NCBI GenBank assembly: GCA_013360185.1
Contig: JABWCO010000012.1
Coordinates: 1 to 43,585, forward strand
Source: Bdellovibrio sp.
GTDB lineage: Bacteria > Bdellovibrionota > Bdellovibrionia > Bdellovibrionales > Bdellovibrionaceae
DNA length: 43,585 nucleotides
Reading direction: 5' to 3'
Shown: in pieces, positions 1-41,518 of the stretch
Numbering within the stretch: the stretch's first letter is position 1
Layout: each line of letters begins with the position of its first letter
Translations under genes and position numbers: made by a program
The notes under the pieces: model-generated
Told to the model about the DNA's origin: nothing
The model's input: only the letters and a program-made list of their open reading frames with translations
Databases searched by the model: none

Positions 1-1139
1 GAAAACGCCGCCACATTCGACGCTGCATCAGAGCCTGCGTTTTGAACAGCTCCTGTTATGCGAGAGTCATTCCCTGCTGCTACCGTGCCTACGCCTGTTC
101 CTACATTGAGAGAAGCGGCACCACCAAGAGCGGTCCATGCCCCATCGCCTCTTAAATAAGTCGTATTGTCCGCTGTTCCCGAGGTTGCTTTAGTAGCAAG
201 AGAACCTAAGCCACTCACGTCGGACGTCGAAAGAGTCACCGCGCCGGTGCGTCCTGCGACGCTTGTCACAGAACTACCCGCACTAACTGTCTGCCAAGTT
301 CCATCACCGCGAAGATAGGTTGTATTATCTGCTGTTCCTGTGGGACTCATTGTTGCTAAAGAACCTAAACCTAAGCTGGTTCTTGCTCCCGATGCCGTCG
401 TAGCCCCCGTACCACCATTCGCAATCGCTACAGTACCGCTAACATTTGTCGCGGTCGTTGCCGTTGAAGCATTCCCGGTGATGTTAATCCCAGCAGATGT
501 ACCACCAGCATTGAAACCATTTAAGATAGCATCAAGTTTTGTGAATCTATCAAAGATGCTTTCCAAGTTCGACTGAACCACGCCTTTTAAGTTGTTCACA
601 TTGATAAAATCTGTATCAGACTTACTGTTGAGCATCTCAGAGTTCACCGCAAAGCCCACAGAGCGCATATTAAAATCTGCAACGATGTCCTCACCTTGAA
701 CATTTAAACGAATACGCAAAACCCTGCGATCTACATTCGAGGGAATATAGCTTTGACCTGAAGAAATAATGTTATTGGCTAAATCTACGCATTTAAGATT
801 AGTGCGCGTTGTTTTATTATCAAGCACCTGACTTAAGGAAAGAACCGGAGAAGGGTTGCGAATACCTGGGGTCGCTGCCGCGCTATCTCCTAAAACTAAA
901 TTTAAATAACCGTTAGAAATATTCTTACCTGAATGTTCTTCTTCACGCAAAACACAGTGATTTTGGGGATCAAGAACTTGTGCTGTCACGCTGATACCAC
1001 TCACTGTCGGATAACTTCCGTCAGATCTTTTCAAAACGGCCTGAAAGCTAATGCCTTTATGTTGTGCATGCCCCTCTATAGAGAACCCTAAAAATAAAAT
1101 TAGTCCTATAACGGATGAACAGACGTACCGCTTATTCAT
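1..1139 (-). CDS. Secreted tail-fibre-like repeat protein (3' part cut by window edge)
   Basis: The reading frame is open from an ATG at 1139 to the window edge, so the C terminus is missing. It starts with a Sec signal peptide (MNKRYVCSSVIGLILFLGFS, then cleavage near GHA-QH). Next comes a domain of about 180 residues with a single mention of cysteine-containing strands, then low-complexity modules. The modules repeat the pattern GTADNTTYLRGDGTW with flanking LGSLAT and INITGNASTATTA segments, as in phage tail fibres and in the large surface 'anchor' proteins of Bdellovibrio. Such proteins often end in an endosialidase-type self-cleaving chaperone domain, but that part is outside the window. 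The start overlaps the stop of the upstream lipoprotein gene by 8 bases, so translation is probably coupled to it. Role in surface attachment is inference from the modules. Confidence 0.85.
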   Translation of the reverse strand, partial: MNKRYVCSSVIGLILFLGFSIEGHAQHKGISFQAVLKRSDGSYPTVSGISVTAQVLDPQNHCVLREEEHSGKNISNGYLNLVLGDSAAATPGIRNPSPVLSLSQVLDNKTTRTNLKCVDLANNIISSGQSYIPSNVDRRVLRIRLNVQGEDIVADFNMRSVGFAVNSEMLNSKSDTDFINVNNLKGVVQSNLESIFDRFTKLDAILNGFNAGGTSAGINITGNASTATTATNVSGTVAIANGGTGATTASGARTSLGLGSLATMSPTGTADNTTYLRGDGTWQTVSAGSSVTSVAGRTGAVTLSTSDVSGLGSLATKATSGTADNTTYLRGDGAWTALGGAASLNVGTGVGTVAAGNDSRITGAVQNAGSDAASNVAAF

Positions 1140-1554
1140 AGAAGACCCCTTCAATTTCCCACTGACTATTATTTACTGCTTTTGTTTTTTCTGAAATTTC
1201 ACCAAAGACCCCAGTAACTTGGTAGTGACCGGACGTTACAACTTCACCGTGGATAAAATCTGGATCTTTGCGATTGAGATGCCCTATAGAGTCGATGCTT
1301 TCAGACAACGATTGAATACTCGCATCCAAGGAGCAAGCACTTAGACTGAAGATCAGCCCACAAAAAATGAAAATTTTTTTTAGATTTATTAAGACGGATT
1401 TATTGCTGAGTTGCTGAGTTGCTGAGTTGCTGAGTTGCTGAGTTGCTGAGTTGCTGAGTTGCTGAGTTGCTGAGTTGCTGAGTATAAACGTACCAGACAG
1501 ATTTCCTCTGTCAAGCACCTCACTCTCGAATGTTAAATCATTTTGCTCACGCAT
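1132..1554 (-). CDS. Phase-variable lipoprotein (octanucleotide tract in 5' coding region)
   Basis: A 140-residue frame opens with ATG at 1554, which has a GGGAG ribosome site about 10 bases upstream. It then passes through ten copies of an 8-bp repeat, read as the octapeptide LSNSATQQ. After the repeats comes a typical lipoprotein signal, NLKKIFIFCGLIFSLSAC, with lipobox LSAC, followed by about 65 residues of unknown function. There is no ATG, GTG or TTG between the tract and the signal sequence. The only usable start is upstream of the tract, so repeat number sets the frame. Both alternative frames stop within eight codons after the tract. The 55-residue extension ahead of the signal sequence is odd; a lost start codon (ATA at the expected position) fused to the repeat-bearing leader is possible. 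The stop overlaps the next gene. Confidence 0.8.
   Translation of the reverse strand: MREQNDLTFESEVLDRGNLSGTFILSNSATQQLSNSATQQLSNSATQQLSNKSVLINLKKIFIFCGLIFSLSACSLDASIQSLSESIDSIGHLNRKDPDFIHGEVVTSGHYQVTGVFGEISEKTKAVNNSQWEIEGVFYE
1403..1482 (-). repeat. Ten perfect tandem copies of an 8-bp repeat (contingency tract)
   Basis: On the plus strand the unit is TTGCTGAG, repeated ten times without a mismatch; on the coding strand it is CTCAGCAA. Eight is not a multiple of three, so gain or loss of one unit shifts the frame of the lipoprotein gene. With ten units (or 7 or 13) the frame is open. Confidence 0.97.
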
Positions 1555-3846: not shown

Positions 3847-4596
3847 TCAATCCACATTCCATCCCATAATTTTTCTAGGCTTAGCAAACTCAACAATCGG
3901 AGCACCCTGCAATGAATTTGCGTCAATAACATTCCACTGCCGATCTATTTTCTGCCATTTTTGGTTGTAAAAATCGGCATCAGGAAAAAGTTCGTCAATT
4001 AAAGAAAACCTATCGTTCATACTTTTCCGAGTCGTCCTTATTCCAATATATTTGCCAACCCCGATAGTCTGAAAACAGACGCAGATCAAATAACCATCTT
4101 CAGTTTTGAAAGGCTCCATCTTTAAATCCGTGGACCTCCATGACCAATTATTTCTTGCAACCTCTTTATCGGTATCATAACGACCTGCTTGAGACTTTCG
4201 ATACCTTAGAATAAGTTTACGTGAAGATTTCTCTATAGTTTCCCATCTTTGAGTTTCAAGTTTTTTCATAATTTGCTCGGCGGGGAAATCCTTAACTTTT
4301 ATAAAAAAATGGTTATCTGGAGAAAAAAAATAGGGATACCACTTCATTTTCCTATACTCCAAAAAAATATTCGCACATAAAAACCCAACAATTATCGGCA
4401 TTACAACCGTCATGCCGATGATATAAGTTTCCCAATAAGAACGAAGGGGCGAAGATTCATTTCTAAGCTCAATTAAATAGGTAACATACATGATTAAAAA
4501 TGGAAATGTGACAAAACAGACTAAAAAACCAAATAAACCAACGCTGCAAATCTCCTTTAAAAATGTGCGAGGACGCTGAATCACAATCTTTATCAT
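3847..4596 (-). CDS. Membrane protein coupled to the Rhs gene; candidate immunity protein
   Basis: This 249-residue protein has two N-terminal membrane segments (about residues 16-42 and 57-76) and a soluble C-terminal domain of about 165 residues with many aromatic residues (KWYPYFFSPDNHFF, NNWSWRSTDLKMEPF). The ATG shares one base with the TAA of the giant Rhs gene (TAATG), so it is made by re-initiation after the toxin-like protein. In Rhs and other polymorphic toxin systems the gene directly behind the toxin encodes the immunity protein. Here the toxin tip is hydrophobic, and a membrane-bound immunity protein would fit a pore-forming target. I know of no family match; the immunity role is inference from position. 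Confidence 0.7.
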   Translation of the reverse strand: MIKIVIQRPRTFLKEICSVGLFGFLVCFVTFPFLIMYVTYLIELRNESSPLRSYWETYIIGMTVVMPIIVGFLCANIFLEYRKMKWYPYFFSPDNHFFIKVKDFPAEQIMKKLETQRWETIEKSSRKLILRYRKSQAGRYDTDKEVARNNWSWRSTDLKMEPFKTEDGYLICVCFQTIGVGKYIGIRTTRKSMNDRFSLIDELFPDADFYNQKWQKIDRQWNVIDANSLQGAPIVEFAKPRKIMGWNVD

Positions 4597-7500
4597 TATG
4601 GCACCTTCATCGAGTTACAGTTGAGTCCACACGCAGGACTTAAATCTCCTGTAGTTGGTAGAACACTATTCAATAGTATATTGACTCCTCTTTCCAACCA
4701 AAATGAAATCTTAGGTCCATACTCTTTCGCCCCAACAGCTATTGCGGGAGTCGCAAATCCGACTATACCTCCAGCAACAACACCTGTAAGCGCTCCAGCC
4801 CAACCACCAGTCGCTCCGCCGTGAAGTCCTAATACGGCAGCATTGCCAACTGCGAGAGCCGTTCCTAATCCAAATCTTGGTAAAGCCGCCGCAATTCCAT
4901 ACCCAAGCCCCCCACCAGCGACACTCAATAGAAACCCTTGAGTCCAATTCGTCAGAAACACGCTTCCAAAATTAGCCCAGAAATTCCCACCCATGAGAGA
5001 AGCCTGAAGAGAACTAAACAATATTGCGGGAATTAGAGAAGTAATCGCCGCCTCAAATAAAAATCCGATAATAGGAGCTAAAAAGGCAAATTTCCCGTCC
5101 GGGTCCACGTAGTTCACACCATTGTTATTTGCGTAAACGTACTTGTTGATCACACTAAGGGCACTTGAAAGTTTACCCGGATGCGGATCTTGCTGAATAA
5201 ATCTACCCGTCGCTGCATCATAGTACCGAGCCCGATAGTAATATAACCCAGATTCTTCATCAAACTCTCTGCCCGTATAAGCAAAATGCGTTCGTAGCGG
5301 CGGAGCTGAAGAAAGATCGGCGCTATTATCTGGACTTACTAATCCCAGTACCTCTCCAAATGCAGAGTAATGAATACGCTGAACAATATTCCCCGCACTA
5401 TCTGAGACTGCCTTCACTGAGCCTACATGGTCTTTGATAAATTCATAAGTTCCAGAATTCTGAGCGAGCCCAGCGGAAACTCCAGCGCTACTTATATCAA
5501 CACTCAATACATCATCTGTAGTCAGAGCAGAGTGAGTGTATCGCGCAAGTAAATTTCCAGATGCGTCTAGTTCGACAGACATCTCCTCACCATCATAACC
5601 GTAGTTACGCGTGTAATTTTTAATTATGTTACCAGGGCTATTGCTGTCATAAACCTGCTTCCGAATACGTCGGCCCGCCGGATCATAATGATAGCTCGCT
5701 CCCTTGTATGAGTTCGCAGAAAGTGCATTGGCGTAATAAGCCACGGACACAAGTTGATTTTCTGAATTGTGTTCAAACTTAACAACCTGTCCCGAGGACT
5801 TATTAACTTTTTGCATAATATTGCCAGAGTAATCATAAAAATACTGATTTCTGCCATCATCGGTTAAAAGCTGTCCCGTGGAGTCATAGACATAAGCACC
5901 CAGCAAATCAGTTATTCGATTTCCTAAGTTATCGTAAGAATAAGATTCTTGCGCAGGAAGACTTAGTGGTGTCGATCCATTGAGGGATGCAAAGGTTCGA
6001 TTTACACTCGAAACATAGCCAGCTTCATCATATCCGTAACTTTCCGTGGCAGATACCCCCTGACTTCCAGTTACAAAGCCAAGTTGATTATGGCTAAGAG
6101 TTATTGCTTCGACCGATTGGCTGTTTGATGTTTTATTATATATCAAAGATTGCAAATTTCCGGTCGCATAAGAAATCAATTTATTTATTCCCACGCCATG
6201 AACTTGCTTAAGCCTATTCACCCCATCATATCCAAAGTAAAAATTCTCACCTTTCGTATTCTGAAGTTGTCCCAATCTCATCGCTGAATCATAGCCATAT
6301 AAAACTTGACCACCCAGCGAATCTGTCATGCTCGTGCGTTGATCAAAAGAGTTATATGTGTAAGCAGTCGCATAAGAGCTAAACCCAGAGGCTCCATTGA
6401 AGGCTTGAGTCTGAAGACGAGAACCGACATCATAAGTATTTGAAATCGTACCCGTGCTGTTCGAGACTGTTGCCAAATTTCCCCTAATATCATAAGTGAA
6501 GCTATAAGTTTGCTCCGGCGTGACCTTAGAAATCATTTGGTTCAAGTCATCGTAACCAAAGGTGATCGTCTGATTTCTCTCATTAGTCTGACTGATTAAA
6601 TTTCCATTTTGGTCATAAGCCATCGTCACACTATAATTGAGCGGATTCGTTTTCGATGTCAGCCGTCCCAAAGAGTCGTAGACAAAAGACGTTACTTTCC
6701 CCTTAGGATCTGTAACCTCAGTCAATTCACCAGCAAGAGAATACGTGTAAAGAGTTTTCTCTGCTCTCGGGTTCGTTACCGATGTCAGCCTATTGAACAA
6801 GTCGTACTCGTAGGCTTCATTGACGAGCTGCGCTCCATTCACAAGAGTTTTTAAACTCATATTGCCATAGGCATCGTAAGAGAATCTTGTCTCTTTATCA
6901 TCCGTATTGACCTTAACTAAGCGACCTTTATTGTCGTAATCGCGAGTCTCAGTCGTTGAGTCACCATTGGCGCCGACTTTCTGGATCTGAATAGGTAATT
7001 CAAATCCATTGTATGCCACGGTGGTCGATGCCCCTGCGATGTCCGTCGTGCTTAGCAATAACCCCGTCGAACTCGAATAATTTCTGTGGACTGTTTTACC
7101 GTTTGTAGTTTCCGCGATCACATTCCCTAGGGTATCGTACCCCAAGATTTTCTCTTTGCCCGTTGCGGAATCATAACTCCGCACAAGATCACCCGTGCTC
7201 GAGTTATACTCAAACTCTGCATTCGAAGTATCTGGCCTAATGACGGAAACTGGTTTTCCATTTTCATTATAAGCAAACGTTGTCTTTCCACCGCTTGCAT
7301 CAGTTATCACCTGAACAAATCCGTTAAGGTCTTTGTCGATTTTGATCTCAATTCCTTTAGGGTCTATGATCCCATCATAAACTCCTCTCGTCGCTCCCAC
7401 GCGACTTTGCAATTGCCCAGGATTTTCATTAGTTCCAGATGCCAAAGATTTAGAAACTGAGTCTGCTATCTGAATTTGCGAGTTATCTGGCTTAATAACT

Positions 7501-10500
7501 TTTACCAGTCGATTGGCAACGTTATAGAAGTACTGTATCGCACCGTTCTTTTTATTGCCCTCTACCGACATGAGTCCTTTGGCATTGTACTCGTACTCTT
7601 GCCGTGAGCCATCAGGATACTCAACTTCAGAAAGCTCACCTTTCGAATTATAAGAGAATAACGTCAGTCTCCCACCGGGATCACGAATGCTGGAAAGAAG
7701 GTCGCCGGAATATTGGTATAAAACGCTATCACCATTCGGATAGGTAACTTGCGTTAAACGATTATTAGTATCGTAGCTATAATTTACAGATAGCCCAGCT
7801 AAATCAACGCTCTGAGTTTGATAGCCCTTATCATTAAAATGAACTTTAAAGCCATTTCTAAATGTTCTGACCCACGATCCATCTTCATTTTTCACAATAC
7901 TTGAAAGATCTTTATTTCCAGGAACAAATGCCAAACCATTTGCCGAATCGGCAAACGTAATTTTGCGAATCTTATTGTTTCCCGAATCTGAAACGACCAG
8001 CGCACCATCATTCGTTACAAATAATTGCGTCGGACTAAAGAGCTGAGTACTTAGAGGAGGAGTACTATCTCCATTGTCACCAGGTGCTCCAGTACCAGCC
8101 ACAACGACGGCGGCTCTATTGGCAAAGTCAATTCTTACAACTCGATGATGCCCAGTATCTGCGACGTATAAATAGCCCTTGGCATTATCTACCGCTAAAC
8201 CTGATGGCATTGAAAAGAAAGCTTTCTCCGCGGCTACAGAGTTAGCTAATACTCCCCCTTCACTTTGTGAAAGTCCGGCGAAGACAGTCATCTGTCCACT
8301 CCCATCAACTTTCATAATGTGTCCCGCCTCTGTCGCAATAAAGAGATTTCCTGCGGCATCTAATGCGACTGCACGAGGATGAAATAGACCTCCCTCAGTT
8401 GCATTGACAGTACTTCCTACTGGAATATCTGAAGTTCCACCACCACCAGCAAGAGTGCTGATGACGTTATTATCGAAGTCCACCAAACGAACTTGGTTAT
8501 TTCCCGTATCGGCAACAATAAATGTATTTGCTCGAGGACCATAGATAACAGCCGTCGGCTTATTTAATGGACTAGAGTTAACTTGCGAATAAGGGTCCCA
8601 GCCCGCAACGGGAACCACCCCAGAGCCTTGCACCAAGTTTCCACAGGAATTGTTTCCGGTATTTTCACTCGATGTACTGTCTTGAGTTCTATAGCTGCAA
8701 TTCATTCCTGTTCTGTTGTTACATTCCGTCATAACGAAATTCTGGAGATTGAAATCTGGAATCGGATTTGCCAAGTGGGATGCAACTCCCAGACCTTGAG
8801 GATTGATTGAGCCCGCAGTACCCAGCCTACCGGCAAACAACGAAGTTGTTCCGTTTGAAACTCGGATCAATGCATGACGAGTTTGATCTGAGTACACAAC
8901 ATCACCATTGGACAATGGTAAGAATGTCACGGGCTGACTGCCGTAAGTATAGTCAAATTTTTTGACCTCGCAATGAGACTTCGGAGTATATTGAATGACA
9001 GGCTCGTAGTGATCTCGAACGCAGATATTTCCGCCCGGCCACTCCCAACGTTCATCACAAACATAAATATAATCAACGATGTCAGATTGAGTCCAATTGT
9101 AGTTATAGTTACCCGCTACAATGCCTTTCATCTCAGACGCAGTTCCAAATTCTTGTGCTGAAACTGAACTTCCGCTTAAATTCGCTTGATAGAACTTCAT
9201 GCCATCAGATTTTGCGAACTGTACATTTGGATAACCGACTAAGCCGACTCCTTTTTTCAAGTCGCCGCCAAGGGTTCCGATATTGGCAATCGTTTTAATA
9301 GTATCTTTTTGGTAATAACTAGAGACATTTCCATTCGATTCTTCAATCATCAAATGATTGTCGTTTGGATTTACAATTCGCTGTACTCCCGCAATCTTCC
9401 ACCCACGACCTACGGACGATTGAACCTCATTCTGAACAAATAAAGGACCGCCCACGTCTTGATCAAAAGCGTTTTCGATAGTTCTGCGCTCATTGATATT
9501 TACCGGGTCAGCTTTAATCATAGGCTGCTCTGTTTGCGCCGAAACATTTTGATCAGCACCCAAGACACGATACTCTACGGTTCTCGTACCCGTAATCTGC
9601 TCTTTAAAACTTGCTTCGTAATGGACATTGAATGGATAAATACCTGTTGGTAAAAAGCCAGTATCATCCGTTCCTGGCTTTTTCATTTCTACTGCAAAAC
9701 TTACAACAGCCTGATTTGGAACTCCGACCATTTTAAATTTCTCAGTTTGAATATCATTTGAATGAAATTGTGCCGTTATATAATCAGGCTGGATAAGAGA
9801 GCGCACCGTAGTCACCGAAGTGAAGTCGATGGCCGTCAGTGCCTCTACATACGGCTGCTTAATAAGGTCGTTATCCGTTTGAATGGGGCTCTTATCCAAA
9901 CATGCAGGAATAATAAATATTCCCGAACAAAAACGAGTACGAATCTTATATTTTACAACATCAGTTCCCGTTTCAGTATATGTTTGCGCCTCCAGCTCTT
10001 GCAGAGGAAAGTCGAAAAGGTTTGTCACCGCCGCCGTTGGTCGCGCCCAACTAGAGTTATAAATTAAAGACGGTGTAATTGTTTTATTCAAAACTGTAAA
10101 TGATGGTGCATCTATTGATGTCTTAACGCCACCGTCAGCAATATTTGCTCCAGGTTTATCCTGATCCCCGATTTTTTTAACCACGGGAGATAATACTGTT
10201 GCGTATGCAAGAGAGAAATGGCGAATCCCTTGACCAGATTTAGTACGAACCGACTGTCCACCGTTTTCAACAGTACCAACGCCCCCGACTTCCCAGTCGC
10301 CCGTTTTCGAATTATAAAGCATAATCGCAACATCAGTCCCCTGAGGGTACTCACCTACATTCGGCATCGTAACATCTACAGGTTCAGAAAACGTAGTTCC
10401 CGAGGGTTCCAGTGCAATCACTTTCGTTGGCCGCGCAAAAGCGGGAGGCGGAATTGTTGTACGGCTCACCGGGATTTCTACAATCGAAATTTTCCCATCG

Positions 10501-13500
10501 CTACTGCCCGCTGGAAATTGCACGGACTGCGCAGGAATCTCAAGTGTAGTACCGGGTGCATGGGTATCTGTAACCGTTCCGCCTGCCTGGTAATCGACGT
10601 GACCGCCCGTATTATCAAGATACGTTGGGGCTAGATAGATCGGTCTTTGAATAATACTATCATTGCTAACACTCACTGTGACATTAACCAAAGATTGAGA
10701 GAATCTTTTGGTTGCTTCCTCACCCTCTGCCAAAGTTACCGTACTACCATCAACGACAAGGGTACGATCACCGCGAAGTGAGTTGATATTTGTTGTTGAT
10801 CTTCGGAAAACAAACACTCCTCCACTATCGGTCGTTGTCTGCACATCTGTTCCGACAATTTTTACTGTCGCATTAGCCAGCGGCTGCCCGCTTGTATCGA
10901 ATACCGAGCCCGATAAAATGATGTCACTATTGCTTCCTAAGAAAATCTCATGAATTTCAACTTTTCCAGTCAATGGATCTTGCGCTTTTAGACTCGCACT
11001 GGAAAAGGCATCCACTAAAAATTCGAAAGCTCCTTCAAAGTTGGCATTCTTAGTCTCGGAGCTAAAGAATCCCGTACTCAAAGTCACCGAGTATCCTGGT
11101 TTACTTGCTCCAGCGGCACCTTTTACTAAATACTTTGTTCCATCCTGAACCGGGACTATTGTAACCAACTCTGGATACAATGTACGAATAAGGACGCTAA
11201 AACTTACGGTGAGTGAGGTTTCATTTCCAACTTCATCTATTCCTACAACATAGAATTGCTGAAGCCCTTCGGACGCAAAAGTATATGGCATATTGAATGA
11301 TTTTCGATCTGCCGAGAAGTTTGGCACCGATTCACCATTGATAAATACTTCGCTTAGGCGCTTGTCTGATGTTCCTGATATAACTTGATAAGCCGCATCC
11401 AACTGCTGACCTTCCAAGGGATTCGTCATAGTCAAGACTGGTGGCTGCGTATCCATACGGATTGGTCCCGTTTGATAACTAGATTCATTGCCCCAGTCAT
11501 CCACAGCAATAATTTTAATATAATTATCAATTTCAGGATCAAGTGGAACATCCCATGAAATGAAACGCTCAAATGTAGTAAAGACCAAGTTGTCGTTTAC
11601 ATAAACTGATACCGTCGGCAAATGAATATCTTGCGCAGAAATATCAAGACGTATTGAGGGAGTATTCACGTAAGGTTTATAACCCGTCACTGTCAAAACA
11701 GGTGCTTGGAAGTCTGTTTCGATCACGATGTTATTTTCTAGCGTTGATTTATTACCCGCTAAATCAGTAGCAACAAGTTTAATTGTCTTTGTCCCATCGG
11801 TAAGAAACAACAACTGCCCCGCAAAGCTTGTACCCCCTTCATCCAAAGGAAGAGATAAACCATTTGCTGAAATATCCGACAGGGGCTCATCAGAAAATCC
11901 TGAAATCATCACCAACCGCTGATTACTTCTGATTGTTTCGTCAGATGCGGGTAATACGCTATTAAGAACTGGAGGAGTAACATCTACCGTAATTGTATCT
12001 GTAACAATCGAAGAAGAGTTTCCAGAAGCATCTACAGAACTAACAAATACGGTATTTGTCCCTTCAGGCAGGTGAAGGTCTTGAATAATTTTTTTACTCT
12101 TAGACTCAACAGCTGTCATTCCATTTACCTGAACGGTCGTCGTGGTGCTTGCAATATCACGAATATCCAACGACAGGTGGAAATTAGGGTTATTCGTTAA
12201 AGTCGGCTGAGTCGGAAAACCCGTTGCTAAAATTTGTGGCGGCTCTGTATCTGCTACAGGCGCAACTCGATCAACAATAACTTGTAAGTAGGTTGCAGAA
12301 CCGCCCCAAATTTGAACGGAAAGCTTATTTATTTCTTTTAGCTTTACAACACCCTCAAATAAATACTGAAACTTACTTACGTCACCGCTTGCAGTAACCC
12401 TTAGGTCATTCACATAAACGTAAGCATTATTGACTCTATATTGATTCACATACTGTGAGTTCATCCAATTGTTGAACTGGCAAAGTAGATCAAAAATTGA
12501 ATTACAAGGATCATTCGTGGGACGAGGCTCTCCATCTGCATTGAGGATGCGAATTCTATATAATTCATCAAGCTTATCGCTTGGAGCATTAAAGTTCACG
12601 GTATGCATGACCGGGCTCTGAGTATCGGAGCCGTTAAAAGATGTCGGGCCGTAAATCGTCTCTTGTGAATCGAAATAAGGACTTGGACTGACTACAATGG
12701 ATCTTTCAACTTCAGACTTTCCACCACGGTCATCGGTAGCCTTCACCGTCACGATATATGTTCCGGGGGCTGAGTAAACATGATCCGCCGTCCAGGCGCT
12801 CGTCGTTTTTGTTCCATCACCCCAGATAAATTCAAAGCTCGATATGACACCATCTGGATCATATGAACCACTGGTATCTACATAAATATATTCTGGAGTC
12901 CCTCGTATAATATTTGTTTTAATGACCGGAGTTTGATTGGTAGGAAGATTTTGTGCAGGCGGCAAAACTTCAACCGGGATAGATATTTGATCCTCCTGTC
13001 CGGCTGAGTTTTTTACCTTCAGTGTAATTTGATATGTACCCGGACTATTGTAGGTATAGTTAGCACTCAATCCTGAGGCAGTTCCGGTTCCATCTCCAAA
13101 ATCCCAAGTATATGTTAAGGAACGTCCTAAGGGATCAAAGGAATAGCCCGCCTTGACTTGTTGTTGCATCGGAGCTGAACCAACAAGTTTTTTGACTGAA
13201 AAGAAGGCCTTAGGCTTCAAATTAGCAACCACAGTAGACTCAAGAGAGTAGCGCAATTGACTTGTGGGAAATCCTAACTTCGTAAATTCGAAGGTATTGA
13301 TGTCTCTATTGAAATTCAAAGCCACTTCTTTATAAGAACGCAAGTGACCAATCGTTGCACTGGCAATGACAGCCCCATTCAATTTAAAACTATAGTTTTC
13401 AAACTGGGTATAATCTGTCTGAAGTTTCTCAACGGCATTATTTGAAAGGCATTGTCGAACAAGTCCAGCAGGAGTTAACCCCAAACAACTTGGCGCGAGG

Positions 13501-13697
13501 TAAGGCCCCGTAGTTCCATTGTAGACCTTGTAAAGATAATAGCCTTGAGGCATTCCCGTTATATCGACATTTCTGGTAAAAGTATAACTTGCTGTATCTG
13601 GCGTTGTCACAAGCTCCGGCCCGTAGATAACATCAGCGCGAGACGCCACCGAACATAAAGATAATATCAACGTGAAAATAAAATTTGTTCGCAACAT
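4596..13697 (-). CDS. Giant secreted PKD/NHL/Rhs (YD-repeat) protein, candidate toxin carrier
   Basis: The protein has 3033 residues and starts with a Sec signal peptide (MLRTNFIFTLILSLCSVASRA). In order it shows two PKD domains (about 160-340, with WDFGDG and IWGDG), an unassigned part, then about four Ig-like repeats each opening near DxxPPxL (480-850). Next are a carboxypeptidase-regulatory-like fold (about 930-990), a ZU5-like region (1040-1165) and NHL repeats (about 1690-1905, with VADTGNNQVR and VADTGHHRVV). A long YD-repeat shell follows (about 1950-2780), then the Rhs core signature GLYYYRARYYDAATGRFIQQ and VDPDG at about 2866. The last about 165 residues are hydrophobic and glycine-rich, unlike nuclease tips. 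Known Rhs/TcC shells enclose and cleave off such variable tips. There is no PAAR domain, so export is through Sec, not obviously type VI. AAGGA precedes the ATG. The next gene overlaps the stop. Confidence 0.93.
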   Translation of the reverse strand: MLRTNFIFTLILSLCSVASRADVIYGPELVTTPDTASYTFTRNVDITGMPQGYYLYKVYNGTTGPYLAPSCLGLTPAGLVRQCLSNNAVEKLQTDYTQFENYSFKLNGAVIASATIGHLRSYKEVALNFNRDINTFEFTKLGFPTSQLRYSLESTVVANLKPKAFFSVKKLVGSAPMQQQVKAGYSFDPLGRSLTYTWDFGDGTGTASGLSANYTYNSPGTYQITLKVKNSAGQEDQISIPVEVLPPAQNLPTNQTPVIKTNIIRGTPEYIYVDTSGSYDPDGVISSFEFIWGDGTKTTSAWTADHVYSAPGTYIVTVKATDDRGGKSEVERSIVVSPSPYFDSQETIYGPTSFNGSDTQSPVMHTVNFNAPSDKLDELYRIRILNADGEPRPTNDPCNSIFDLLCQFNNWMNSQYVNQYRVNNAYVYVNDLRVTASGDVSKFQYLFEGVVKLKEINKLSVQIWGGSATYLQVIVDRVAPVADTEPPQILATGFPTQPTLTNNPNFHLSLDIRDIASTTTTVQVNGMTAVESKSKKIIQDLHLPEGTNTVFVSSVDASGNSSSIVTDTITVDVTPPVLNSVLPASDETIRSNQRLVMISGFSDEPLSDISANGLSLPLDEGGTSFAGQLLFLTDGTKTIKLVATDLAGNKSTLENNIVIETDFQAPVLTVTGYKPYVNTPSIRLDISAQDIHLPTVSVYVNDNLVFTTFERFISWDVPLDPEIDNYIKIIAVDDWGNESSYQTGPIRMDTQPPVLTMTNPLEGQQLDAAYQVISGTSDKRLSEVFINGESVPNFSADRKSFNMPYTFASEGLQQFYVVGIDEVGNETSLTVSFSVLIRTLYPELVTIVPVQDGTKYLVKGAAGASKPGYSVTLSTGFFSSETKNANFEGAFEFLVDAFSSASLKAQDPLTGKVEIHEIFLGSNSDIILSGSVFDTSGQPLANATVKIVGTDVQTTTDSGGVFVFRRSTTNINSLRGDRTLVVDGSTVTLAEGEEATKRFSQSLVNVTVSVSNDSIIQRPIYLAPTYLDNTGGHVDYQAGGTVTDTHAPGTTLEIPAQSVQFPAGSSDGKISIVEIPVSRTTIPPPAFARPTKVIALEPSGTTFSEPVDVTMPNVGEYPQGTDVAIMLYNSKTGDWEVGGVGTVENGGQSVRTKSGQGIRHFSLAYATVLSPVVKKIGDQDKPGANIADGGVKTSIDAPSFTVLNKTITPSLIYNSSWARPTAAVTNLFDFPLQELEAQTYTETGTDVVKYKIRTRFCSGIFIIPACLDKSPIQTDNDLIKQPYVEALTAIDFTSVTTVRSLIQPDYITAQFHSNDIQTEKFKMVGVPNQAVVSFAVEMKKPGTDDTGFLPTGIYPFNVHYEASFKEQITGTRTVEYRVLGADQNVSAQTEQPMIKADPVNINERRTIENAFDQDVGGPLFVQNEVQSSVGRGWKIAGVQRIVNPNDNHLMIEESNGNVSSYYQKDTIKTIANIGTLGGDLKKGVGLVGYPNVQFAKSDGMKFYQANLSGSSVSAQEFGTASEMKGIVAGNYNYNWTQSDIVDYIYVCDERWEWPGGNICVRDHYEPVIQYTPKSHCEVKKFDYTYGSQPVTFLPLSNGDVVYSDQTRHALIRVSNGTTSLFAGRLGTAGSINPQGLGVASHLANPIPDFNLQNFVMTECNNRTGMNCSYRTQDSTSSENTGNNSCGNLVQGSGVVPVAGWDPYSQVNSSPLNKPTAVIYGPRANTFIVADTGNNQVRLVDFDNNVISTLAGGGGTSDIPVGSTVNATEGGLFHPRAVALDAAGNLFIATEAGHIMKVDGSGQMTVFAGLSQSEGGVLANSVAAEKAFFSMPSGLAVDNAKGYLYVADTGHHRVVRIDFANRAAVVVAGTGAPGDNGDSTPPLSTQLFSPTQLFVTNDGALVVSDSGNNKIRKITFADSANGLAFVPGNKDLSSIVKNEDGSWVRTFRNGFKVHFNDKGYQTQSVDLAGLSVNYSYDTNNRLTQVTYPNGDSVLYQYSGDLLSSIRDPGGRLTLFSYNSKGELSEVEYPDGSRQEYEYNAKGLMSVEGNKKNGAIQYFYNVANRLVKVIKPDNSQIQIADSVSKSLASGTNENPGQLQSRVGATRGVYDGIIDPKGIEIKIDKDLNGFVQVITDASGGKTTFAYNENGKPVSVIRPDTSNAEFEYNSSTGDLVRSYDSATGKEKILGYDTLGNVIAETTNGKTVHRNYSSSTGLLLSTTDIAGASTTVAYNGFELPIQIQKVGANGDSTTETRDYDNKGRLVKVNTDDKETRFSYDAYGNMSLKTLVNGAQLVNEAYEYDLFNRLTSVTNPRAEKTLYTYSLAGELTEVTDPKGKVTSFVYDSLGRLTSKTNPLNYSVTMAYDQNGNLISQTNERNQTITFGYDDLNQMISKVTPEQTYSFTYDIRGNLATVSNSTGTISNTYDVGSRLQTQAFNGASGFSSYATAYTYNSFDQRTSMTDSLGGQVLYGYDSAMRLGQLQNTKGENFYFGYDGVNRLKQVHGVGINKLISYATGNLQSLIYNKTSNSQSVEAITLSHNQLGFVTGSQGVSATESYGYDEAGYVSSVNRTFASLNGSTPLSLPAQESYSYDNLGNRITDLLGAYVYDSTGQLLTDDGRNQYFYDYSGNIMQKVNKSSGQVVKFEHNSENQLVSVAYYANALSANSYKGASYHYDPAGRRIRKQVYDSNSPGNIIKNYTRNYGYDGEEMSVELDASGNLLARYTHSALTTDDVLSVDISSAGVSAGLAQNSGTYEFIKDHVGSVKAVSDSAGNIVQRIHYSAFGEVLGLVSPDNSADLSSAPPLRTHFAYTGREFDEESGLYYYRARYYDAATGRFIQQDPHPGKLSSALSVINKYVYANNNGVNYVDPDGKFAFLAPIIGFLFEAAITSLIPAILFSSLQASLMGGNFWANFGSVFLTNWTQGFLLSVAGGGLGYGIAAALPRFGLGTALAVGNAAVLGLHGGATGGWAGALTGVVAGGIVGFATPAIAVGAKEYGPKISFWLERGVNILLNSVLPTTGDLSPACGLNCNSMKVP

Positions 13698-18263: not shown

Positions 18264-18413
18264 TTATCTCATAGTAAGCCAGACTAAAATTTTAATAATA
18301 ATCATAATTGGAGACACAATCCAAAGATTCTTCGCACCGAATACCATGCGATAATCTTTGAGTTGTATTCTAAAATTCATCTCGATTGTAATATAATTTT
18401 GATCTTGATTCAT
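18264..18413 (-). CDS. Small membrane peptide, 49 residues
   Basis: A short frame starts with ATG at 18413 behind a perfect AAGGAGG ribosome site 5-6 bases upstream. It encodes an amphipathic N-terminal half (MNQDQNYITIEMNFRIQLKD) and one membrane helix (about residues 30-46, IVSPIMIIIKILVWL). The site is paired with an upstream CCTCCTTG in a hairpin. It converges on the usher gene. I do not recognise it. A membrane-acting peptide whose translation is held off by RNA structure would resemble type I toxins, but no antisense partner can be seen. The strong ribosome site is the main reason to call it a gene. Confidence 0.5.
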   Translation of the reverse strand: MNQDQNYITIEMNFRIQLKDYRMVFGAKNLWIVSPIMIIIKILVWLTMR

Positions 18414-18418
18414 AAGAA

Positions 18419-18456
18419 CCTCCTTGCACCCACCGCGAAAGCGTAAGTCAAGGAGG
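18419..18456 (-). promoter_or_regulatory. Hairpin hiding the ribosome site of the 49-residue peptide
   Basis: Read on the minus strand, CCTCCTTG pairs perfectly over 8 bases with CAAGGAGG, which is the Shine-Dalgarno sequence of the small gene. A smaller CGC/GCG stem lies inside. The fold should block ribosome entry unless melted by temperature, a ligand or an antisense RNA. Confidence 0.55.
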
Positions 18457-18821
18457 GGCTTTTGAATCAGATCTTGCCCATCTCACAGGAAAGATTAAAG
18501 GATTCGCCAAAGGCGAAGCTCAGTCGGTCTTCTACCGACAGAACGCTTTTGCGTTCGTTTTCTGACTTGCACGTCAAAATTTTGGGACCAGTCGCTCTGG
18601 TCCCCTCCAAAGCCATTTCTAGCAAAGCCACGCCAGCCCCTTCGGGACTGTCATGCCCTTGCTTTCCCTAACGGCGAAATGGCTTCTCCGGCTCTCGCCG
18701 CTCCTTCATCTACATTTTCACGCCCCGACATTTCATGACGGGGGATGAAAACGTAGATGCCCCAAAATTTTGACAAGCAAGTTCCTGGGGTGGGGCCGTT
18801 GGCCTAAAAAATGTTTTTTAG
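18457..18821. other. Non-coding array of consecutive hairpins framed by an inverted repeat
   Basis: I see no convincing gene here. Perfect hairpins follow each other: 18503-18517 (TTCGCC), 18523-18539 (GTCGGT), 18541-18556 (GAACGC), 18584-18604 (GGGACCAG), 18689-18700 (CGGC) and 18794-18804 (GGCC). A wider pair, AGCCATTTC at 18611 with GAAATGGCT at 18676, encloses smaller stems. The segment 18707-18759 is one long hairpin of 18 pairs in 21. A 22-base inverted repeat with 19 matches (18566-18587 and 18760-18781, core GTCAAAATTTTGGG) brackets the central part. The palindrome 18804-18821 closes the array just before the J-domain gene. It may be a structured RNA, or a region active as single-stranded DNA on a mobile element. 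Confidence 0.75.
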
Positions 18822-21036: not shown

Positions 21037-21417
21037 TTATGCCGCAGAAATCACATGACCATGCTCTTTTAGAAATTCAAAATATGCCGGGGTCATAGTA
21101 ATTCCGATAAATTCTTCCATAGTTACCTGTCCATGAATCTCAGAATATTTTTTACGCAATATGTCCTGACGATCTGAGTTTTTCAGGGAGCGTCTTAGAA
21201 GATCTTTGATGTGACTTTCTGTGACCAACTCCAATCCTAATCGAATAATCTGGTCTATTTTAACTTTACGTTTCTTTTGCTTTTTGTTGTCTATTTCCAG
21301 ACCTCTATTTGCAAGCTCCAAAAGAGGAGCTGCTTTCTTTATAGTTTCAGAACTGAGGCGAACTGATTTAGGTGAGTTCTTAGTTGCTGATGTTTTTTTG
21401 ATTCTTTTATTTTCCAT
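21037..21417 (-). CDS. Basic possible ribbon-helix-helix protein
   Basis: The frame can be opened by a TTG at 21429, but the ATG at 21417 has GGAG seven bases ahead, so I use it (126 residues). The N terminus is strongly basic (NKRIKKTSATKNSPK), then SVRLSSETIKKAAPLLELAN resembles a strand-helix of an RHH fold. A second basic helix (KKQKKRKVKIDQIIRLGLEL) and an acidic C-terminal part follow. Such layouts occur in mobilisation accessory proteins and RHH repressors. It is downstream of, and on the same strand as, the XRE regulator and is probably co-transcribed. The fold call is by eye and uncertain. Confidence 0.65.
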   Translation of the reverse strand: MENKRIKKTSATKNSPKSVRLSSETIKKAAPLLELANRGLEIDNKKQKKRKVKIDQIIRLGLELVTESHIKDLLRRSLKNSDRQDILRKKYSEIHGQVTMEEFIGITMTPAYFEFLKEHGHVISAA

Positions 21418-21479
21418 TTGATTCTCCAAAATTGAATTACTTGATACTTTCGGTTTATATTTTGTTGCATTTCATGCAA

Positions 21480-26788: not shown

Positions 26789-26848
26789 TGATAATATCCT
26801 TTGTTGTTTTAATACCTTAAAAAATTAATTTATAAAAATCAGGAGCTG

Positions 26849-26893
26849 CTTCAGCTCCGAGCCTGTGGCTCTGTGCTCTGCCGGCTTATGCCG
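26849..26893. repeat. Two-hairpin intergenic element, copy A
   Basis: Linker CTTCAGCTCC leads to stem GAGCC/GGCTC with a 3-base loop, linker TGTGCTCTGC, and stem CGGC/GCCG with a 4-base loop. The linkers match copy B at 40058-40102, while six stem pairs differ by compensatory change. The element abuts the stop of map. Confidence 0.75.
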
Positions 26894-27655
26894 TTAAGGC
26901 AAAGTCAAAATTTCGTAGCCAGTATCCGTCACAAGTACTGTATGTTCAAACTGTGCGGACAATAGACCATCTGCAGTATGATAGTACTTAATGCTTGAAC
27001 CGGGTATATCAAACTCGACGTATTGATCTGTTCCTTGGTTCACCATGGGCTCGACGGTGATACAATGGAAAGGAACCAGACGTTCGCCTTTGCCTTTTTT
27101 GCCGAAGGCCGGGACGAAAGGCTCTTCGTGGAAACGGCGCCCGACTCCATGACCTCCGATTTCTTTAATCGTCGTATAGCCTTTGCGAGTCACATACTTA
27201 TTTGTTTCAAAGCCGATATCGCCGGTAAAACCGCGGGGCACGATGGCCTCAATACCCAAATCGCGGGCTTGGCGTGCCGTTTCGATGAGGTCCTTGGCAT
27301 CATCAGAGATGTTGCCGATAGCATACATGCGTGATGTATCACCAAAAAAACCGTCAATCCAAGAGGTCACGTCGACGTTGATAATGTCGCCGTCTTTTAA
27401 AACGGTGTCATCAGGAACCCCATGACAGACCACTTCGTTAATCGACGTGCAGGTGTATTTCGGGTAGCCATGATACCCAAGACAAGCGGACTTCGCCCCT
27501 TGAGTCTGCATAAAATCATTAGCCAGCTCATCGATTTCGTTCGTGGTGATGCCAATCTTTATGTACTTTTCTAGGTAGTTTAGAGTGTCGGCCGCTATAC
27601 GACACGCACGAGTCATTTTTTTGATTTCTTCAAGTGATAAAGGCGTAATTCCCAT
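26894..27655 (-). CDS. map: Type I methionine aminopeptidase
   Basis: I choose ATG at 27655 (MGITPLSLEEIKKMTRACRI, 253 residues), where family members begin; a TTG-opened frame reaches 27706. The enzyme removes the initiator Met from new proteins. Metal ligands are visible in INVDVTSWIDGFFGDTSRM (two Asp), GHGVGRRFHEEP (His), VEPM (Glu) and FEHTVLVTD (Glu). No Shine-Dalgarno is present: TATAGT lies only 5 bases ahead of the ATG. This would fit a leaderless message, though the -35 match is poor. The preceding gene on this strand is the SWIB protein, separated by a terminator. Confidence 0.95.
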   Translation of the reverse strand: MGITPLSLEEIKKMTRACRIAADTLNYLEKYIKIGITTNEIDELANDFMQTQGAKSACLGYHGYPKYTCTSINEVVCHGVPDDTVLKDGDIINVDVTSWIDGFFGDTSRMYAIGNISDDAKDLIETARQARDLGIEAIVPRGFTGDIGFETNKYVTRKGYTTIKEIGGHGVGRRFHEEPFVPAFGKKGKGERLVPFHCITVEPMVNQGTDQYVEFDIPGSSIKYYHTADGLLSAQFEHTVLVTDTGYEILTLP

Positions 27656-27743
27656 AGGGGGACTATATAGCACGAGGGTGTACAATTGGATAGGACCTTT
27701 TAGCAAAAGCCCAGAAGGCTAAAGTTCGCCCTCCTAGAAAATG

Positions 27744-27804: not shown

Positions 27805-28206
27805 CTATTTCAAGTGCTTAGAAACAAGTTTAGTCATGTCGAACATAGAAACTGTAGTTTTGCCGCCGAAAACTTCTTTAAGTTTTGCGTCTGCATTGAT
27901 GTTTCTTCTGTTTTTAGAATCTTGAAGATTGTTCTTCTTGATGTAAGCCCAAAGTTTTTTAACAACTTCAGTGCGTGGAAGTGGAGAAGCACCAACAACT
28001 GCTGCCAAAGCTGCAGATGGAGTCAACGCTTTCATGAATGCTGCGTTTGGTTTACGAGCAGTTTTTGCTTTTGGAGCAGCTTTTTTTGCAGCGGCTTTTT
28101 TAGGAGCAGCTTTCTTAGTTGTAGCTGCTTTTTTAGGAGCCGCTTTTTTTGTAGTAGCTTTTTTAGGAGCTGCTTTCTTTGTAGTAGCTTTTTTCGCTTT
28201 TGCCAT
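27805..28206 (-). CDS. Histone-H1-like SWIB domain protein
   Basis: The 133-residue product joins a lysine/alanine/proline-rich tail (residues 1-52, repeats of TKKAAPKKA, like histone H1 and AlgP-type proteins) to a SWIB/MDM2-type domain (about 53-133). Seen are NAAFMKALTPSAALAAVVGA, LPRTEVVKKLWAYIKKNNLQ, and KLKEVFGGKTTVSMFDMTKL. SWIB domains come from eukaryotic chromatin remodelling factors and are found in Chlamydiae and Bdellovibrionota. A role as nucleoid-binding protein that compacts DNA is likely but inferred. It has its own strong terminator, and its divergent 5' region contains two perfect hairpins. Confidence 0.93.
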   Translation of the reverse strand: MAKAKKATTKKAAPKKATTKKAAPKKAATTKKAAPKKAAAKKAAPKAKTARKPNAAFMKALTPSAALAAVVGASPLPRTEVVKKLWAYIKKNNLQDSKNRRNINADAKLKEVFGGKTTVSMFDMTKLVSKHLK

Positions 28207-39008: not shown

Positions 39009-39938
39009 CTAGTATTGTTGTTTCAAATTATAAATCATTAATTTTTCATCCAGCTTCTTCTGCGCAATTTCACCAGCGCTTAAGTAAAAGGGCCCTTCAT
39101 TGCGTTCGATACGCTTTTGAAAGGACAACATGCTGGTTTCATCCTTAGGATCAATATACGTACCTGTCGGACCGTAATTTTCCAAGAAAGCCAAATCTGG
39201 TTCTTTGCTAAAGAACTTTTCCCAACAGTGCGTGTTCACTTGCACACGATACGTGATCGTCTTGGCATGAGAGTGCACCGGCGCATAGGCCCCGATGACT
39301 TCCAAGTGGCCATAGTGCGAATGTAACTTCAAAGCTGGGCTTCCCCACTGAGTCATGCCAGAGCACTGCTCGACATTTGCGTACCACAAACCAAAGGCCT
39401 TCGACATAAAGCCTAAGCCATACAATCCACCACTTGGTAAAAGAGAATTCACCGAACACAAGTTGTGGGCGACCCACTCTCCACGATGCATTGTTGGGAT
39501 GATAATGAACAACGACAATGGCACCCAGTCCATGTCATCAAGTGAAGTAACTTCTTTCATCACGCCGGAAGTTTTAATGGGTGAATTCGAAGCCGGGAAT
39601 TTTTTTGGATCAAGGGCTGCGCGCATTTCTGGCGTCAACGCTGAGGGACGTGCGGCGAAGCCCGCAACAAACCCAGGCATCACAGCACAGTCGTAAAACA
39701 CCCAACGAGGCATGGCCATATTGGAAGGACCGAAAGCTCGTTCTTCTAAAGAGTAAATGCGATCGGCAAACGTCACTTCTGCAATGTCTAAGGGATCTTT
39801 AAAGACAGGTTCTTTTTTAAACCAATCCAAGCGATGAACGGAACCAGGTTGGGCAATTTGGTTTTCTGGACGCACAAAAACATAAGGGCGAATATCATCG
39901 CTGTTCATCCAGTCTACTTTTGCCAATAAAGAACTCAT
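39009..39938 (-). CDS. Conserved hypothetical protein, 309 residues
   Basis: The product is soluble with no signal or membrane segment. It is rich in aromatic residues (MSSLLAKVDWMNSDDIRPYV, YGLGFMSKAFGLWYANVEQC) and has several histidines (HSHYGHLEVIGAYAPVHSHA) that could bind metal. No domain is recognised. It is followed 13 bases later by the zinc-finger gene, suggesting one transcript. Its upstream region contains the 27-bp repeats and copy B of the hairpin element. Confidence 0.75.
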   Translation of the reverse strand: MSSLLAKVDWMNSDDIRPYVFVRPENQIAQPGSVHRLDWFKKEPVFKDPLDIAEVTFADRIYSLEERAFGPSNMAMPRWVFYDCAVMPGFVAGFAARPSALTPEMRAALDPKKFPASNSPIKTSGVMKEVTSLDDMDWVPLSLFIIIPTMHRGEWVAHNLCSVNSLLPSGGLYGLGFMSKAFGLWYANVEQCSGMTQWGSPALKLHSHYGHLEVIGAYAPVHSHAKTITYRVQVNTHCWEKFFSKEPDLAFLENYGPTGTYIDPKDETSMLSFQKRIERNEGPFYLSAGEIAQKKLDEKLMIYNLKQQY

Positions 39939-39975
39939 CTCTTACCTAACTCGAACTACGTTCAAAAAAACTTCT

Positions 39976-40069
39976 GCTTCAGCTTCGCTCTGCGCCTGCG
40001 GGCCTTCAGCTGCGCTCTGTGCCTGCCGGCCTTCAGCTGCGCTCTGTGCCTGCCGGCCTTCAGCTCCGG
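39976..40069. repeat. Three tandem 27-bp copies plus a partial fourth
   Basis: The unit CCTTCAGCTGCGCTCTGTGC plus CTGCCGG occurs twice exactly (40003-40029 and 40030-40056). One diverged copy precedes it (39976-40002) and a 13-base partial follows, merging into copy B of the hairpin element. It is not a CRISPR: the repeats are directly tandem, with no spacers. Confidence 0.85.
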
Positions 40070-40102
40070 ACTTGCAGTCCTGCGCTCTGCGCCCTATCGG
40101 GC
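40058..40102. repeat. Two-hairpin intergenic element, copy B
   Basis: The same linkers as copy A (CTTCAGCTCC and TGCGCTCTGC) carry stem GGACT/AGTCC with loop TGC and stem GCCC/GGGC with loop TATC. All changes from copy A keep pairing. It lies just past the fumC stop. Confidence 0.75.
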
Positions 40103-40120: not shown

Positions 40121-41509
40121 CTAGACGCCGGTCATCTCCTCTGGTTTTACTATCTTATCAAACTCTGCGCCAGAAAGGAGTCCAAGATTGATAGCTTCTT
40201 CGCGCAGTGTTGTGCCGTTTTTATGGGCAGTTTTCGCGATTTTAGCAGCGTTGTCGTAACCAATATGGGGGTTCAATGCTGTCACGAGCATCAGTGAATT
40301 GTCCAGGTGTTTGCGAATTTGTTTGGCATTCGCCTGAATTCCAATAACACAGTGATCTGTAAACGACTCACACGCATCTGAGAGTAAACGAATTGAATTT
40401 AGCACATTAAAAACAATCAGGGGTTTGAACACATTCAGCTCAAAGTGCCCCGTGGCCCCGCCTATGCTCGCCGCAACATGATTGCCCATCACCTGCGCAC
40501 AGACCATGGTCATGGCCTCGCTTTGAGTCGGATTCACTTTGCCGGGCATGATGGAGCTGCCTGGTTCGTTTTCTGGTAAATGCAGCTCGCCAATCCCGCA
40601 GCGTGGGCCGGAGCCCAACAAACGAATGTCATTTGCGATCTTCATCAAAGACACAGCAATGGTATTTAGGGCCCCACTGACCTCAATCAAGGCGTCATGG
40701 GCGGCCAAGGCTTCAAATTTATTTTCAGCAGAAACAAAGGGTAATTTAGTTTCTTGCGCGATGGCCTTGGCTGCTTCAATTGCAAACTGAGGATGCGTAT
40801 TAAGTCCGGTGCCAACCGCCGTTCCCCCCAGGGCCAACTCGTACAGATGGGGCAAAGTGTTCTGAATGCGCTTTTTCGAATGGCGCATCTGTGTTGCGTA
40901 ACCGGAGAACTCCTGCCCCAAAGTCAGCGGAGTCGCATCCATCAAATGCGTGCGCCCGATTTTCACAATGTCTTTGAATTCGTTTTGTTTGGCCGTCAGC
41001 GCACCGCCAAGTTTGTCTAGCATTGGAAGCAGGCGGTGTTCGATTTGTTCCCCCACCGCAATGTGCATCGCAGTCGGAAATGTGTCGTTAGAACTTTGCC
41101 CCTTGTTCACATCGTCATTGGGATGAATTTCTTTGCTCGGTAATTTTAAACCCAGTATGTCTTGGGCGCGATTGGCAATGACTTCGTTAGCATTCATGTT
41201 GGTTTGTGTGCCCGAACCCGTTTGCCAGACGACCAAAGGAAAGTGCGCATCAAGTTTTCCAGCAATCACTTCGTCCGCAGCCTTCACGATCACGTCTGTT
41301 TTTTTTGCGTCAAGCAGCCCCAACTTATGATTTGTTAAGGCGGCCGCTTTTTTTAGAATCCCTAAAGCACGAATCATTTCCCGAGGAAAACGATCACCGC
41401 CGATGCGAAAATTCTCTGTGGATCTTTGTGTTTGTGCTCCCCAGAATTTATCTGCTGGAACCTTCACTTCACCCATCGTGTCTTTTTCAATGCGGAATTC
41501 TTGACTCAC
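40121..41509 (-). CDS. fumC: Class II fumarate hydratase
   Basis: The 462-residue product interconverts fumarate and malate in the TCA cycle. Visible are [20 protein letters not shown], the [18 protein letters not shown] active-site segment, the [19 protein letters not shown] segment, and the fumarase/aspartase signature [18 protein letters not shown] choose GTG at 41509 ([12 protein letters not shown]), which has AAGGGG five bases ahead; a GTG at 41515 would sit on that site. It follows an SDR gene by only about 3-9 bases, so they share a message. Confidence 0.95.
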
Positions 41510-41518
41510 GTTCACCCC

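Follow-up and report, generated by a model that had tools for sequence, protein, structure and literature searches.

Two short repeats in a 43,585-nt stretch of a Bdellovibrio genome (contig JABWCO010000012.1 of assembly GCA_013360185.1; hereafter the window) raise the question of whether hairpins that have changed sequence while keeping their pairing belong to a wider family of structured elements and, if so, what such elements might do for the genes beside which they lie. The first-pass annotation had described copies A (26849-26893) and B (40058-40102) as 45 nt each, with shared linkers and stems that differ in sequence but pair fully, and this description holds; compared by eye, six pairs (3 + 3) are changed on both sides between the two copies. 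The unit as originally drawn needed revision, as the minus strand reads better, the element is about 50 nt long, and an outer GC/GC pair joins the supposed linkers. The suggestion of an undescribed structured family stands in that the element is multi-copy, with conserved linkers, stems that vary and yet pair, and no Rfam match. A and B belong to a family of ~50-nt structured elements dispersed in Bdellovibrio genomes.

Searches with the linkers and with covariance models returned many copies with conserved linkers and free stems, not only A and B. Across the 39 genomes searched, the pattern CTTCAGC-gap-GCTCTGC gave 0-16 matches per genus genome, versus 0-2 for a reversed control, and background-level counts outside the genus; the gap between the linkers is 13 nt in A and B, and a pattern with a 14-nt gap misses both. 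Eighty sequence stretches carrying units were collected for analysis, and a covariance model, R1, was built from 29 gapless units (alignment A1). Because A and B were not among these 29 units, their recovery by R1 on the minus strand, at 26893-26845 and 40102-40056 respectively, is above chance. R1 matched 21 of 24 genus genomes, and 22 of 140 genomes across the order, 21 of these within the genus; the one match among the 116 genomes of the order outside the genus (G049) is a proper unit of subtype III, where the three subtypes are defined by the pair beside the GNA loop described below (U-A, C-G or none, the third being the type of A and B). A second model, R2, built from more diverse units (alignment A4) and applied at E <= 0.01 with up to 150 candidates scored per genome, yielded 304 matches (0-40 per genome) spread over 22 of the 24 Bdellovibrio genomes, including 17 in the window's own genome (G000; 3.54 Mb in 227 contigs). 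A second subfamily reads GCAGTGC...GCTGRAGC.

When Rfam covariance models were run against the window, the sole match was to tRNA, and against six element loci they gave two sub-threshold, chance-like matches, both in L164. We found no published description of the family in the open-access literature searched. For a comparison with small RNAs, we took G006 to be HD100. None of the G006 family matches among those listed overlapped the eight attack-phase sRNA coordinates in Table 2 of PMC3627812. A stretch at 18517-18556, which had been put forward as a looser relative, is not a family member, as an unfiltered R1 search leaves it unmatched up to E 10. The surrounding region (18400-18800), a succession of small hairpins likewise outside the family, contains a 22-nt inverted repeat (18565-18586 / 18761-18782) and a partial R1 match at 18679-18700 (E 0.42).

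In the sense direction of the upstream gene, the unit runs in the order hp2 (4 bp with a loop of ~4 nt), GC, AGW, GCY, GNA, hp1 (~5 bp), GNA, RGC, UGRA, GC, AGC. The "linkers" partly pair with each other (GCY/RGC) and contain two non-Watson-Crick loops, GNA/GNA and AGW/UGRA. In RNA, a GNA/GNA loop can make sheared G.A pairs; the opposite strand would carry T.C mismatches. The exact GNA/GNA loop is present in 71 of 93 distinct units, the strict parse leaving out the other 22, window copy A included. The position pair 17-44, an A-U in the model, is nonstandard (U.U) in 18 of 21 units that R1 found but that were absent from its build, and is therefore part of an internal loop.

In alignment A4, 99.7% of 588 cells are paired, against 23-48% in slid controls, and 75 cells are changed on both sides, against 16.5 in shuffled and 3-14 in slid controls, with two-sided changes in 10 of 14 pairs. 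The 21 units that R1 found outside its own build likewise show two-sided changes in 10 of 15 pairs, and in two of them the outermost pair, G13-C49, has become A-U. Selection for the structure itself, which the first-pass annotation had read from the six compensatory pairs, is accordingly likely but falls short of proof: compensated changes are almost all from one Watson-Crick pair to another and G.U pairs are scarce (4/472 in the GNA/GNA-parsed units; the working strand shows 4 G.U against 2 A.C, few events in all), so that upkeep of complementary arms at the DNA level may also serve as an explanation.

The stems are moreover renewed at speed. In 19 comparisons, orthologous copies were set against each other whose coding flanks are 92.9-98.7% identical; of the 127 stem pairs parsed, 20 have changed on both sides, a count that takes perfectly parsing stems only and in which one comparison (L101/L131, two changed pairs) aligns different units of one array; by our own arithmetic, independent substitution at 4% would predict ~0.1 such pairs. 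Stems of orthologous copies thus change pairwise faster than their flanks diverge. This turnover, together with the rarity of G.U and the frequent losses described below, is what would be expected if the arms were kept complementary by mutation, through template switching or fold-back repair within the palindrome, and the family were neutral debris. We consider that improbable, as the unpaired GNA/GNA, AGW/UGRA and CAGC positions are conserved across genomes, which fold-back would not preserve, and as intact units are kept at orthologous sites in diverged genomes, for example at metAP in 6 of 23.

Both window copies lie behind genes on the minus strand; genes here and throughout were called from open frames alone. 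The full unit of copy A spans 26845-26893 (R1 E 2.5e-7, R2 E 4.8e-7; subtype III, with no Y-R pair) and comprises hp2 at 26882-26893, GCAGAGC at 26875-26881, hp1 (GAGCC/GGCTC) at 26859-26871, GCTGAAG at 26849-26855 and CAGC at 26845-26848. Its hp2 begins at the base following the TAA stop (26894-26896) of an M24 peptidase/methionine aminopeptidase-like gene, metAP (26894-27706; PF00557, E 3e-44). Copy B, also of subtype III, spans 40056-40102 (R1 E 6e-4), with hp2 at 40091-40102 and hp1 (GGACT/AGTCC) at 40068-40080, and is separated by 18 nt from the stop of fumC, encoding a class II fumarase (40121-41515; PF00206, PF10415). It is the final unit of a tandem array (39977-40102) that also contains three 27-nt tandem units without hairpin 1 (39977-40003, 40004-40030 and 40031-40057, minus strand; TRF period 27, 3.3 copies), and an unfiltered window search gave a further partial R1 match there (39973-40004, E 0.015). 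A like arrangement is seen at G015:C1:480182-480363 (L145), where at least six tandem 23-nt units without hairpin 1 adjoin a full unit. The window protein at 39009-39938 is 82-87% identical to proteins in several Bdellovibrio records. A record titled Streptomyces griseus (CALQIT020000019.1, L073), probably a mislabelled MAG, encodes a protein related to one from Bdellovibrio at 58% identity.

The arrangement at metAP recurs across the family. In a set of 76 distinct first-in-array units with exact GCAGAGC/GCTGAAG linkers, and counting only stops that close a frame of 100 or more open codons, an in-frame stop lies 0-18 nt before GCAGAGC in 59 and at 11-14 nt in 50; as this latter distance is the length of hp2, hp2 begins at the stop. 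In a second set of 40 loci, picked from the matches listed for R1 (one of which, L239, is also in the pattern-search list), hp2 lies -1 to +6 nt from a sense stop at 20 loci, and at six the element's 3' end is equally close to an antisense stop. The other 20 are away from a sense stop, and several of them abut an antisense stop or sit upstream of an antisense gene; at L242, L247 and L249, the element occupies the space between two convergent stops. The most frequent arrangement (56/92) has both flanking genes in the sense direction, and the bias towards sense orientation with the upstream gene is strong. The initial label of "intergenic element" was therefore too generic for a sequence that is mostly sense to the upstream gene and often begins at its stop codon. 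Hosts with matches include flgK, ssb, gspC, lpdA, murD, jag, membrane pyrophosphatase, hutU, a sigma-70 factor, Hsp90, a class II aminoacyl-tRNA synthetase, FliL and CarD, while 5 of the 30 host proteins scanned matched nothing under the limits applied.

GC-rich hairpins 3' of genes could be intrinsic terminators or their decayed remains, and copy A can instead fold a 7-bp hairpin at its 3' end (GGAGCUG-aag-CAGCUCC, 26842-26858, minus strand) that is the RNAfold minimum free energy structure (z -4.2), competes with the outer stem and is followed by a T-rich stretch. TTTT, however, occurs within 20 nt of only 15 of 83 last-in-array units, which indicates that the elements are not terminators. 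Many units also lie between closely spaced codirectional genes, and at several loci (e.g. L109, L096) a separate hairpin and T-run follow downstream, making this explanation very improbable.

Adjoining stops in the first set are TAA in 30 cases, TAG in 25 and TGA in 4, against a background of 157, 93 and 91, so that UGA is depleted (4/59 versus 91/341, Fisher p 0.0004); those in the second set are TAA in 10, TAG in 9 and TGA in 1. One bold reading is that the elements form a new class coupled to translation termination, in which they would be set or kept behind RF1 stops (UAA/UAG), with an RNA whose two non-canonical loops would be recognised by a protein or by the terminating ribosome, and with stems exchanged pair by pair through a dedicated process that outpaces the evolution of neighbouring genes; we think this unlikely.

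The family is also gained and lost. At the metAP site, read by eye in 23 genomes, an intact unit is present in 6, a degenerate one in 2 and none in 15, so the element is dispensable there. Relative to G014, copy A is a clean insertion right behind the TAA; G023 and G002 differ from G006 at metAP by a clean insertion after the stop, and G023 differs from G006 at L109 by one between the TAG and the terminator. Such clean presence/absence is seen at several loci between genomes ~95% identical. At least two of these differences look like losses: in L086 versus L115, G018 and G001 carry the unit, and in L095 versus L222 the 3' end of a unit persists. At fumC, units are present in the window, G006, G023, G018, G001 and kdesi (L065), and absent from L059, L060, L061, L062 and L078. 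Separately, a different hairpin-rich stretch (CGGCTGGTGAAAAAGGCCC...), nearly the same at L206 and L202, lies right after a TAG at the 3' end of metAP in two genomes (G005, G019) without the element there, and is possibly another stop-adjacent repeat.

Precise presence and absence at ~95% identity, along with tandem arrays, degenerate copies, the preference for TAR and almost purely Watson-Crick stems, would suit selfish palindromic DNA whose single-stranded hairpin is recognised and copied in trans, with post-stop sites tolerating insertion or holding a TAR target and any effect on RNA incidental. This has a real though minority share of our confidence, and several results count against it. 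In the window's own genome 15-17 elements occur in the absence of any Y1_Tnp/RAYT match, whereas G011 and G022 have 10 and 12 Y1_Tnp matches but 2-3 elements, so that the RAYT/Y1_Tnp link of the GTAG families shows no tracking of elements here. For 13 of 97 units, against 8.4 expected, the closest non-orthologous unit comes from the same genome, which indicates that near-identical copies have not arisen in a burst; non-orthologous units average 0.684 identity within and 0.667 between genomes, with no recent-copy signal. A palindromic target does not account for the sense-orientation bias, and searches of viral contigs (one pattern) and of phages and plasmids (one query each) returned no match.

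The element has the REP-like trait of a short, dispersed, mostly extragenic palindrome in many copies, and its closest likeness is to the E. coli REP elements near stop codons, to which it is unrelated in sequence. Both are short palindromes repeated on the 3' side of genes, in some cases only a few nt beyond the stop. PMC12306157 reports that E. coli REPs less than 16 nt from the stop reduce translation of the gene before them, and places ~11% of predicted REPs no more than 15 nt from a stop. By comparison, half or more of the Bdellovibrio units tested begin at the stop, and they combine hp2 with a body holding two conserved internal loops. The GTAG/CGTC REPs are described in PMC3733652 as dispersed stem-loops with interchangeable complementary stem bases and frequent G.T pairs, found in clusters and near ORF ends, where GTAG termini can provide TAG stops. 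The Bdellovibrio family is similarly dispersed, clustered, interchangeable in its stem bases and close to ORF ends, but has two hairpins in fixed order and rare G.T. The GTAG/CGTC tetranucleotide at the stem-loop end is absent from the A1, A3 and A4 consensus, and the listing, read by eye, has no conserved G preceding adjoining TAG stops.

Integron attC sites are also folded elements right after a stop codon, conserved in structure beyond sequence and with GTTRRRY / RYYYAAC core sites. The Bdellovibrio elements are likewise folded, often lie directly behind the stop and conserve structure more than sequence; the attC core is absent from the A4 consensus and the hosts are not cassettes but core genes, whose order is conserved at the two sites that were followed.

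On balance, and tentatively, with a little under half of our confidence, we favour Bdellovibrio-specific, dispersed, structured REP-like elements that act in the mRNA of the upstream gene. Once the upstream cistron has been translated, hp2 and the two-loop body would fold right behind the stop codon, and we infer an RNA-level shield or insulator: a compact block that may keep exonucleases from attacking the upstream message at its 3' end and could uncouple translation of that cistron from that of the next gene, as E. coli REPs near stops do, while the element would itself spread and be lost as a dispersed repeat. Weighing against an mRNA role are the G.U count, unusual for RNA under pairing selection, the half of the second set lying off a sense stop, the many metAP sites without the element, and the two genus genomes without any R2 match.

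The family would give the model predator Bdellovibrio a described set of post-stop structured elements at core genes; natural presence/absence pairs at ~95% identity make their effect on operon expression directly testable, and the rapid paired turnover offers a good system for studying how palindromes stay complementary.

Elsewhere in the window, ten perfect copies of the 8-mer TTGCTGAG lie at 1403-1483 inside an ORF (1132-1554, minus strand) and, with a unit length that is not a multiple of three, form a candidate phase-variable tract. A single 3033-aa ORF occupies 4596-13697 on the minus strand. Repeats of 15/30 nt at 28069-28194 fall within the ORF at 27805-28206 (minus strand), with a related stretch at 21325-21345 in the ORF at 21037-21429 (minus strand), both ORFs presumably encoding lysine/alanine-rich histone-H1-like proteins.
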